From Syntrophorhabdaceae bacterium (lineage in GTDB: Bacteria; Desulfobacterota; Syntrophorhabdia; Syntrophorhabdales; Syntrophorhabdaceae), in contig DASXUJ010000010.1 of the NCBI GenBank assembly GCA_036504895.1, forward strand, positions 1 through 34,817: a stretch of DNA of 34,817 nucleotides, written 5' to 3'. The notes beneath the pieces were generated by a model. It saw nothing but the letters and a program-made list of their open reading frames with translations. It was not told where the DNA came from and did no database searches. Position numbers and translations under genes: made by a program. Positions 2,503 through 27,253 of the stretch are shown in pieces (position 1 is the first letter of the stretch; each line of letters starts with the position of its first letter).

Positions 2503-3447
2503 CTAACCCGACTTGTCCTCCCTTCTCCTCATGATCTTCGATACGGCCGAGGTAGTGATTCCCAGTTCACGTGCTATGGTGACCTGAGGTATTCCCACTT
2601 CCCTTGAAAGGAGAAAAACCAACTCGGAACGGAGACGGGAAAGCTTTCCGGCCCGGGAGCCTCCTGCGAGTGCTTCACGGGATATGCCTTCCTTTTGGCA
2701 TAAGGAGACGATAATTTCTTCCATTATCTTATACCGATCGGAAAAAGGATGGGGCTCCTTGCGCACTAATTCCTTCAGGAACTCTCCGGAGCCGAGCACC
2801 CTCTCATCAGTAAGGACCGGGGTTCTTCGCGAAAGAGCCGCTTGGGAGATGCCTCCAAGCGTCCGGATGAGGCCTCCTCCTGAGAGATCGGGCAGATATT
2901 TCTTCTCCACTCCTTCCCTCATGAAGGCCCGATAGTTTTTCTTCGAATTTCCAAACCACCGCAACACGTAAGCTGCATCATACCAGGGGAAAGGATTCTT
3001 GTGGATAAGATAATAATGGCCGCTAAACCGGTAAGAATCGAGAGTCTCTAAGGTAGGCGTGACATGGGCATTGAGAGGATTAAGGTGGATATAGCGCAGA
3101 AGTTCCACGAAATAAGGATCCTCCTCAACCACGATAGATTTATAGCGGTTCTGAAACAGGTGGCCTGCCCGCTCATGCCGGTTATTGAAGCTTACGGCAT
3201 AACCCGTAAGAAGGCGCCTCATGAACCGGGATAACCCCTCCGGGCCGCTGCGGAGAAGCAGATGAAAATGGTTGGGGACGAGGGCAAAGGCGTAAATGTC
3301 CGTTTTTGTTAGTTCCGCTAACAGCCCCAACCGTTCGATGAACCTCTCGCGGTCAACATCATCCCTGAAGATAGGGCTGCGCTCGATACCTCGTGCAATA
3401 ACGTGATGGAGGAAGCCTCCTTTGTCGAGACGCGCTTTTCTGGGCAT
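2503..3447 (-). CDS. REP-associated tyrosine transposase (RAYT, IS200-like Y1 HUH domain) with C-terminal helix-turn-helix
   Basis: The N-terminal 130 residues are a Y1-transposase domain of the TnpA-REP type. They begin MPRKARLD, carry the HUH metal motif in PNHFHLLL (H60, H62), the FQNRYKS motif near residue 100, and the likely nucleophilic tyrosine in LLRYIHLNP (Y119). The C-terminal 60 residues contain an HTH-like segment (VTIARELGITTSAVSKIMR), a common RAYT extension. Such proteins nick and rejoin single-stranded hairpin repeats and are usually domesticated single-copy genes. Length (314 aa) and motifs are intact, so the gene looks functional. It has its own consensus promoter, and a second copy of its 5' end and promoter survives at 5556-5700. 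Confidence 0.9.
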   Translation of the reverse strand: MPRKARLDKGGFLHHVIARGIERSPIFRDDVDRERFIERLGLLAELTKTDIYAFALVPNHFHLLLRSGPEGLSRFMRRLLTGYAVSFNNRHERAGHLFQNRYKSIVVEEDPYFVELLRYIHLNPLNAHVTPTLETLDSYRFSGHYYLIHKNPFPWYDAAYVLRWFGNSKKNYRAFMREGVEKKYLPDLSGGGLIRTLGGISQAALSRRTPVLTDERVLGSGEFLKELVRKEPHPFSDRYKIMEEIIVSLCQKEGISREALAGGSRAGKLSRLRSELVFLLSREVGIPQVTIARELGITTSAVSKIMRRREDKSG

Positions 3448-7751: not shown

Positions 7752-8122
7752 AATGCAACCCCTTATTTAGCAATCTTAAGACCTATTCTCCCAGTAAAGG
7801 GTGTGGTTTGTCAACCAATTAGCTGATGAGCCTGCCTATCATTGTGATTGAATATCTGGAGTGTCATCTATGCGTTGGAACGCCAACCCCCCCAAACCCC
7901 CTTCCATCGGCCTGTATTCTTTCTCATATCAAGGCGGGAAGAAGGAGTCGACGCCGGCGTACTCTTAGTAAGTCAAGGAAAGCGACGACGCGCCCAACGC
8001 GGAGATGGGGAAGAAGACAGGCCGATGAGACGCGCCCAACGCGGAGATGGTCAAGAAGACGGGTTGATGAGATGATGGGAAATAGCTCGCCAAACCCAAT
8101 GATCCCGTGATATCTTTCTTTT
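7752..8122. other. gene-free stretch between the island and the addAB operon
   Basis: No convincing gene is visible. The short open frames here give low-complexity, arginine-rich translations without ribosome binding sites. The region holds a RAYT-promoter-like TTGACA segment (7796-7816, minus strand) and a 42-bp tandem duplication (7987-8070). The promoter of the downstream helicase gene should lie here, but I see no clear -35/-10 pair. Confidence 0.4.
7987..8070. repeat. two tandem copies of a 42-bp unit
   Basis: Units 7987-8028 and 8029-8070 share GACGCGCCCAACGCGGAGAT, then differ at a few positions before AAGAAGAC and GATGA. There are only two copies and no spacer, so this is a simple duplication and not a CRISPR. 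The 42-bp period is a multiple of three, so it would keep any frame open. Confidence 0.8.
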
Positions 8123-25557: not shown

Positions 25558-26742
25558 GTGACACAAGATCACACGCCGAATGAACGATTATTCCAGTTGA
25601 AGGAAAAAATCGGAATAGACGAGAAGGACCTCAATGTCCTGAGCCCTTTCGCCGACTTTTTTATCGCAAGAAAAGACGAATTCGCCGATTATTTCTACGA
25701 TGTCTTCTTCCGCATACCCGAAGCGCGCGTGGTGCTCGAGAGCGAGAGCGAGCCGGGCCTTCTGAAGAAGGTGTGGGCCGCATGGTTCGATTCGCTCTTC
25801 CGGTCCCGTCTTGACGGGAAATTTCTGGCATACCTGTGGAGTATAGGCGCGCGGCATGTGGAGGTGAATCTCGACCATCGCTTCACCAATCTCGGGTTCT
25901 CCATTATTCGCCAGTTCTGCCACAAAGTGATTCAGGAAGAGACGGGAATTGCCTATTCGGCAACTCTCGTGTTTGTCTTCGACAAGCTTCTCGATCTCTG
26001 CCTGCTTATAGAAACGGACGCATTCATCGAGAAGACCACGAGATGCGACCTTCAGGTCTTCCAGGGGGTTGAAGACCGGGTGAGGAACCCCGCCCTCGTA
26101 ATAGGAGGGAACATAAAGCGCCTCCAGAAGCAGGTGGCGGCAGGGAGCAAGGAATATAAGGTTTACGAGATGCTCATGGCAGAAAACCAGAGGCTCGAGC
26201 GTATGGTCTCCGACGTAAAGGCCTATATGGAAATTTTCAACGAGGTGGTAAACTTTCAGCCCCTGAGGGTGGATAGCGTCATAGCCCCCCCGCTCTCGGA
26301 GCTTCGGGCAGAGGCGCTCTTCAATCACGTAAAGGTGGAGACCGAGTGTGGCGGCGATACCATGAAGATCATGGGCGACCCCGGAGAATTGAAACGCCTT
26401 TTTTATGCCCTCCTGAGAAACGGCATGGAAGCAGTAGACCCGGAAAACCCCCTTCTTAAGATTACCGCCCGGAAGGAAAAGGCTGCGCCCTTCAATGTGG
26501 AGATAGAGATATTCAACCGGGGCATACCGCCGAAACAGGAAGAGATCGAGGACCTCTTCACCCCCTTTTATTCCACGAAACTTGCAGGAACGGGATTCGG
26601 CCTCCCCATGGCCAAGCTTATCGTGAGAAAGCATTACGGGAAGATACGGATGGAGCCCATGGCAACCGGCACCAAAGTAATTATCACCCTCCCCGCCGGC
26701 CCATCATCCGCCGGGTCATCTTCTTCCCCAGCTCTTCGTTGA
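25558..26742 (+). CDS. globin-coupled sensor with degenerate histidine-kinase module
   Basis: GTG start after AGGAGGACTTATTC. Residues about 8-160 resemble a protoglobin domain; in SIGARHVEVNLDHRF, H100 is at the position of the proximal haem ligand. A linker and dimerisation-like helix follow. The segment EDRVRNPALVIGGNIKRL (172-189) aligns with the H-box HELRNPLxxIGG, but the phospho-accepting His is replaced by D173. The HATPase-like domain keeps an N-box (LLRNGMEAV, N288), an F-box (LFTPFYSTK, from 333) and a G2 box (GTGFGLPMAKLIV, from 344). Its G1 box reads NRGIPP instead of DNGxGI. It may therefore sense gas or redox state and signal without autophosphorylation. No response regulator gene is adjacent. 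The last residues (GPSSAGSSSSPALR) are encoded by a repeat element. Confidence 0.78.
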   Translation: MTQDHTPNERLFQLKEKIGIDEKDLNVLSPFADFFIARKDEFADYFYDVFFRIPEARVVLESESEPGLLKKVWAAWFDSLFRSRLDGKFLAYLWSIGARHVEVNLDHRFTNLGFSIIRQFCHKVIQEETGIAYSATLVFVFDKLLDLCLLIETDAFIEKTTRCDLQVFQGVEDRVRNPALVIGGNIKRLQKQVAAGSKEYKVYEMLMAENQRLERMVSDVKAYMEIFNEVVNFQPLRVDSVIAPPLSELRAEALFNHVKVETECGGDTMKIMGDPGELKRLFYALLRNGMEAVDPENPLLKITARKEKAAPFNVEIEIFNRGIPPKQEEIEDLFTPFYSTKLAGTGFGLPMAKLIVRKHYGKIRMEPMATGTKVIITLPAGPSSAGSSSSPALR

Positions 26743-26834
26743 CCGCGTCGTCGCGTTCCTTGACGTACCAAAATGTACGCCTGCGGAACGCTCCTCCTTG
26801 TCGCCTCGATCTGAGAAAGAATATGACCCGGCGG
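26708..26834. repeat. 127-bp cruciform-like structured element
   Basis: The outer arms 26708-26734 and 26808-26834 are inverted copies: CCGCCGGGTCAT, TTCTT and CAG are matched, with five mismatches in 27 positions. Nested inside are GCGTTCC (26753-26759) with GGAACGC (26785-26791), and CGTAC (26764-26768) with GTACG (26775-26779) around a CAAAAT loop. The mismatches are spread out. The left arm supplies the last coding residues and stop of the globin sensor gene. It has no recognisable protein product, and could be a miniature mobile element or a structured RNA. Confidence 0.7.
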
Positions 26835-27064
26835 CGCCGCTTAAGATAATTCAAATACTAACGACATAGAGCAGCGCTTTAACGCATCCTCGTTTTCCGA
26901 TTATACGTTTTCCGAGTTCCGCTTTTAACGCATTACACGCATCACACGCACTAACGCATTACACGGTTTTTCACGGTGGGGATTTTATGGGTAGAAACTA
27001 TGGGGCGGCCGGAGAGCGCCCTTGGGAGGGCGCCGTCTGGAATCTTCCGGCTATCGGGCGGGGC
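26743..27064. other. intergenic region between the globin sensor and rubredoxin-like genes
   Basis: No gene is seen. It contains the right two-thirds of the cruciform element, the right copy of the GTGTAATGCG repeat (26877-26949), and a small hairpin GCGCCCT/AGGGCGC at 27016-27033 nested within GCCGGA/TCCGGC. The last structure lies about 30 nt after the rubredoxin-like gene on the minus strand and may mark its 3' end, but it has no U-run. Confidence 0.5.
26877..26949 (-). repeat. GTGTAATGCG-type dispersed repeat, right copy (inverted)
   Basis: Read on the minus strand from 26949, the sequence runs CGTGTGATGCGTGTAATGCG, then TCGGAAAACGTATAA, then CGGAAAACGAGGATGCG. It parallels the copy at 23161-23232 block by block. 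A further partial GTGTAATGCG unit lies just outside (26950-26965). The inverted pair brackets the ABC-F and globin-sensor genes. Confidence 0.7.
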
Positions 27065-27253
27065 TTACAAGCCTCCGCGGGTGGTGTGGTAGTTCATTAT
27101 ATTGATGAAGGCCTCGTCGTCGAGGAACTCATCGTAGCTCAATTCTTTCGTTACCATGCTGCTTCCGCAATTCGGACAGAAATTTTCAGGCACTTCTCCG
27201 TCGAGAAACATGTAACCGCATAAATCACATACATACTCATCGGGTATTCTCAA
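27065..27253 (-). CDS. small rubredoxin-like/zinc-ribbon protein
   Basis: This 62-residue protein starts at a TTG preceded by GAGGAGGAGAATAT, a strong site that decides the start. Two Cys pairs, C9-x2-C12 and C26-x2-C29, sit in CDLCGYMFLDG and FCPNCGSS. The spacing and the P-E-x-x-C-P-x-C-G pattern resemble the rubredoxin-like domain of rubrerythrin. It may bind one iron as an electron carrier, or zinc. The C-terminal 30 residues are acidic and helical with no further motif. It lies about 225 nt downstream of the MBL gene on the same strand, so membership of that operon is uncertain. Confidence 0.7.
   Translation of the reverse strand: MRIPDEYVCDLCGYMFLDGEVPENFCPNCGSSMVTKELSYDEFLDDEAFINIMNYHTTRGGL

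Follow-up and report, generated by a model that had tools for sequence, protein, structure and literature searches.

The palindrome that ends the globin-coupled sensor kinase gene of the window (the whole 34,817-nucleotide stretch of Syntrophorhabdaceae DNA that was analyzed) is one copy of a dispersed, non-autonomous, MITE-like element of about 127 bp; to our full reading, in which such copies are moved in trans and kept at 3′ gene boundaries with a putative RNA-level role, we give a probability of roughly 55%. Short palindromic repeats are usually explained by their terminal repeats and a parent IS, or else dismissed. Here, the data show a mobile family whose folded strand is constrained in place and whose position is oriented, and its conserved interior, covarying ends and single oriented stop-codon position across families allow selection on a mobile hairpin at gene ends to be put to the test. 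The features of the window are collected in Table 1.

Table 1. Positions of the element, its parts and the genes discussed, in window coordinates.
Position	Strand	Feature	Support or remark
2503-3447	-	Y1 transposase gene (IS200-like/RAYT-type)	weak C-terminal HTH match
7905..8027 (core 7926-8007)	+	second window copy, between divergent genes	
25558..26742	+	protoglobin + HATPase_c gene (globin-coupled sensor kinase)	element DNA makes up the final 11 codons and the stop
26740..26742	+	TGA stop codon	comes from element DNA
26708..26834	minus (folded strand)	whole element, 127 nt	fold, arm pairing, blastn copies
26708..26734	-	outer arm, 3′ arm on minus strand	plus strand codes for a portion of the kinase C-terminus
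26808..26834	-	outer arm, 5′ arm on minus strand	
26729..26812	-	conserved core, 82 positions	covariance model R1, 91.2 bits
26785..26791	-	middle stem P2, 5′ strand, GCGTTCC on minus	tandem G.A mismatches here in most family members
26753..26759	-	middle stem P2, 3′ strand, GGAACGC on minus	
26775..26781	-	apical stem P3, 5′ strand, GGCGTAC on minus	
26762..26768	-	apical stem P3, 3′ strand, GTACGTC on minus	conserved G.U pair
27065..27253	-	convergent neighbor, short zinc-ribbon/rubredoxin-like ORF	adjoins the kinase gene in G002 too

The final codons of the kinase gene read ...GPSSAGSSSSPALR*, with about 11 residues and the TGA coming from the element. The initial annotation had credited the left arm with both the serine-rich tail and the stop codon of this gene. 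The arm does supply the tail, but the TGA lies 6 nt beyond the 27-nt arm, just inside the core. In genome G002, which belongs to the same genus, the kinase orthologue is 62% identical, has the same convergent neighbor and ends in LPMPD without the element. The window copy has replaced the original stop codon of the kinase, giving it the serine-rich tail. This arrangement is unusual, since the arm is translated as part of the kinase whereas most copies in the same genome lie just past a stop codon and outside the frame. It illustrates a route by which a mobile element can supply a gene with a new C-terminus and stop codon. Between the element and the convergent zinc-ribbon ORF, short repeats TAACGCATTACACG occupy positions 26926-26965.

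The cruciform proposed in the initial annotation, with matched 27-nt arms and two nested stems, proved to be real. The arms of the window copy are 85% complementary over 27 nt each and stand 73 nt apart, and the plus strand, taken as RNA, folds with −52.5 kcal/mol (z −5.66), a value that 0 of 200 shuffled sequences equaled. On this strand the nested stems read GCGTTCC/GGAACGC (middle) and GACGTAC/GTACGCC (apical). The minus strand of the same 127 nt folds better still (−73.1 versus −52.5 kcal/mol). It is the purine-rich, folded strand, on which the family shows a fixed order of parts: an outer helix of free sequence, an internal region AGGCG.../...CAACG, the middle stem, and the apical stem GGCGTAC-loop-GTACGTC with a conserved G.U pair (GUAC apical hairpin). 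The middle stem is Watson-Crick paired in some copies, including that of the window, and carries tandem G.A mismatches in most, which, judging from the alignment, may form tandem G.A pairs.

A nucleotide search (blastn) found about 28 copies in the 4.35-Mb genome to which the window belongs, and the covariance model of the 82-position core gave 47 matches at E ≤ 1, about 32 of them at E < 1e-8. Of 297 genomes sampled across the phylum, 36 carry the element, and its carriers include genera from several families. The initial annotation had thought of a repeated element, to be checked by BLASTN, and had named a lack of other copies and of compensatory substitutions as the outcome that would speak against it; the 47 model matches at home (about 32 of them clear copies), the 36 genomes and the compensatory changes described below bear the proposal out. 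Copy number across the order is patchy, with at least 77 copies in G029, 53 in G025, 41 in G005, 24 in G002 and 19 in G059, and zero in G001 (same genus) and in many other relatives. Carriers include Geobacter sp. AOG1, and among the plasmid records searched one copy lies on pGLOV01 of Trichlorobacter lovleyi SZ, while the phage records searched held none. Exact pattern matches in Actinobacteria and Clostridia are mostly at chance level for 18 fixed bases; they were counted only if supported by the model, and weak ones (below about 40 bits) form no part of our claim. A search of Rfam returned nothing at gathering score and, below it, only tRNAs and chance matches.

Several copies show additional features. 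Behind the second window copy, part of its 3′ portion is repeated in direct orientation (GACGCGCCCAACGCGGAGATGG...). At three loci in the same genome, L022 (C29), L023 (C127) and L015 (C67), half copies are joined to a GC-rich repeat with GCTCGCACGGCGAGCGAGAGG, possibly as a composite repeat. Different subfamilies occupy apparently the same site upstream of orthologous genes in G005 (L135) and G016 (L181), through either parallel insertion or replacement.

That the family is mobile is close to certain. In 63 copies the trinucleotide TNA stands at both ends, equally far from the core; the two ends share the same N in 52 of these, where 2000 shuffles gave a mean of 19 and a maximum of 32; TTA, TAA, TCA and TGA were all seen. 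These 3-bp direct repeats, carried by copies in other genomes, are a target-site duplication, so the family moves or has moved recently. Together with orthologous sites that lack the element, they support the earlier suggestion of a mobile element. A target motif beyond TNA was looked for and none was found. Counting against our preferred reading, the window copy lacks a clean target duplication, as does most of the majority subfamily of its genome to which it belongs; these copies are therefore probably older or have moved differently.

For movement, our reading invokes a putative enzyme that would act in trans. None of the transposases considered (RAYT and two DDE families) tracks the element, and the outer-arm sequence varies between copies in a way unusual for ends recognized by a transposase; both observations count against this reading. 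Like the REP/BIME/REPIN elements moved by RAYT (Y1) transposases, the copies are dispersed palindromes near gene 3′ ends, and the genome holds seven Y1_Tnp genes. However, no copy flanks the Y1 genes, no Y1_Tnp match was found in G005 (41 copies), G025 (53) or G059 (19), and the 3-bp duplications present here are unexpected for Y1 transposition. With the link to Y1 transposases missing, we give almost no credence to the family being of this kind. The data speak against an IS5-type mover as well: DDE_Tnp_1 (PF01609) is absent from the element-rich genomes G005 and G059, and DDE_Tnp_1_2 (PF13586) does not track the element, since of the 3 genomes among 22 that have it, two lack the element. A non-exhaustive search by end pattern for an autonomous copy found none, mostly returning known copies and a few single sites. 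The family points to a mobilizing enzyme outside the transposase families tested.

The covariance analysis proposed in the initial annotation revealed compensatory changes both across copies and at one fixed locus. Among 81 distinct copies from related genomes, 97.7% of the cells are paired, and double-change cells number 113 against 28 in shuffled alignments and at most 43 in slid controls, a signal that does not distinguish RNA from single-stranded DNA. The arms could in principle have acquired paired changes by mutation alone, through template switching or hairpin-primed replication repair that copies one arm onto the other (quasi-palindrome correction), and in some arms, such as those of L058, pairing is indeed complete or nearly so for 20-30 bp, with the arms extending into coding sequence. 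This process yields Watson-Crick pairs and no strand asymmetry. In the outer arms, however, G.T cells occur at 0.47 of the shuffled expectation and A.C cells at 0.16; copies from other families, taken as an independent set, gave 0.50 and 0.20, with the arm register in both comparisons chosen by Watson-Crick matches only. Retention of G.T with depletion of A.C would follow if it is the purine-rich strand that must fold; neither double-stranded DNA nor template-switch correction should produce such an asymmetry. Moreover, the interrupted stems of the core covary as well. We therefore regard quasi-palindrome correction as an improbable source of the pairing.

The fixed locus is found in genus g5, where the element lies between the same pair of genes in G022, G050 and G051 and where G017 has it at the same stop codon. 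The same gene end is without the element in G045, G047, G061, G041, G049 and G006, and G043 has a disrupted copy. Between the three close orthologues (G022, G050 and G051) nine columns differ, and eight of the nine keep a pair: six make up three compensated pairs, two have changed on one side only and still form a wobble pair, and one is unpaired. Both one-sided changes are of the wobble type on the purine strand, which again speaks against correction by template. The fold has probably been selected in place. With the interior conserved and the ends variable, recognition or function appears to rest on the fold. At the L101 locus of this genus (~1627-1680) a different, very abundant repeat of about 50 nt with CAAGCGGTTCAA-like units adjoins the element; several g5 genomes contain dozens of copies of this repeat.

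The position of the element with respect to genes is oriented. Among 138 copies, 51 have the stop of a frame that runs antisense to the folded strand 18-24 nt past the end of the core, 36 of them at one exact position, against 9 at the mirror position. A further 40 copies from other families gave 22 at the antisense-frame stop and 5 at its mirror, for a combined 73 versus 14 among 178 copies. These genes are unannotated open frames of at least 90 codons; this criterion was used in place of a codon-usage gene finder trained on the window, which undercounts stops in other genomes. Of the duplication-bearing copies, 17 of 46 sit at stops, compared with 3.9% of nearby control TNA sites, which include coding ones; measured against non-coding sites only, the excess is therefore less pronounced. 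In the genome of the window, an antisense gene is found on that side in 28 of 30 copies. At orthologous genes from two families of the order (L084 in this genome, L113 in G029), the element is found at the 3′ end in opposite orientations.

A strong hairpin that often lies between convergent genes (18 of the 30 copies in this genome) might suggest a bidirectional intrinsic terminator of transcription. Divergent and leader positions also occur, however, and T-runs after the hairpin are no more frequent than at control positions (3.4% and 5.9% of copies on the two strands, against 4.4%), which counts against our preferred reading as well. We consider a terminator highly improbable.

A weightier alternative, though one we hold to be unlikely, is a purely selfish mobile hairpin. 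The fold would then serve mobility only, as folded single-stranded DNA or an RNA intermediate bound by the putative enzyme, with no host function, and the stop-codon bias would reflect target preference or the least harmful landing place. Target duplications, a high and patchy copy number and a sole target motif of TNA all agree with such an element; its conserved core and free arms suggest recognition of the folded shape, and G.T would be tolerated equally in single-stranded DNA. Against it stand the compensated changes that accumulated after insertion at the fixed locus and the single orientation of the stop-codon bias. Furthermore, the copies of the window's own genome, mostly without duplications, keep more strictly to gene ends (28 of 30) than do the duplication-bearing copies (17 of 46), which fits selective retention.

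According to the reading that we prefer, copies landing at a 3′ gene boundary in the antisense-to-fold orientation would be retained. As RNA, the folded strand would place a boundary hairpin on transcripts entering the 3′ end of the neighboring gene, which may block antisense or read-through RNA or mark it for processing. This is the least certain part of our reading; working from sequence, we propose an RNA boundary hairpin only tentatively, with the odds somewhat against it, and the folded strand being antisense to the gene at whose stop the element sits counts against a role as RNA. A more elaborate scenario, rather unlikely as a whole, would have a phylum-wide element whose recognition depends on the shape of the folded strand and not on the sequence of the ends, and which is moved by an undescribed enzyme, places itself harmlessly at stops in one orientation, and afterwards persists as a structured RNA at 3′ gene boundaries.

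How does this family compare with known palindromic elements? The 127-bp ERIC element is described, in the relevant parts of two papers, as a long imperfect hairpin that is dispersed, intergenic and proposed to be mobile, with some copies fused to reading frames; in Yersinia it influences mRNA decay in a manner that depends on its orientation (PMC2229807, PMC10969869). The family described here resembles ERIC in size, in its long imperfect hairpin, in its intergenic dispersal and in the fusion of some copies to a frame. Unlike ERIC, for which PMC2229807 gives TA ends and terminal repeats of 7 bp, it has TNA duplications and variable arms of 16-20 bp, and the sections on ERIC in PMC2229807 and PMC10969869 report no oriented stop-codon position of the kind seen here. 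E. coli genomes, in which ERIC is present, gave no sequence match to the family at E ≤ 0.01.

The likeness to bacterial MITEs (Correia/NEMIS, QMITE2, Chunjie) is closer, these being short and non-coding with inverted-repeat ends and target duplications that fade with age, and giving stem-loop transcripts. QMITE2 is placed mostly in 3′ untranslated regions by the passage of PMC10969869 that concerns it. The family has several of the features by which MITEs are recognized, namely many dispersed copies below 500 bp without a transposase gene, terminal inverted repeats and a target-site duplication. However, MITEs have conserved terminal repeats and a variable interior, whereas this family shows a conserved interior and freely covarying ends, and no parent IS was found. 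Chunjie of Geobacter uraniireducens was compared by its description only, and a relation to it is possible.

None of the open-access papers searched by sequence string and by topic describes the family; it is possibly already listed in the supplements of Geobacter genome papers as an unnamed repeat. According to portions of two such papers, Geobacter genomes, from the same broad bacterial group, hold multicopy intergenic palindromic sequences, some of which are called predicted RNAs (PMC2700814, PMC3543383). The one motif printed in their text, GRCGTAGCGCTGCTACGCC, is similar in style to the apical stem of our family, although it differs from GGCGTAC-loop-GTACGTC, and some of these palindromic sets may belong to the hairpin family described here.
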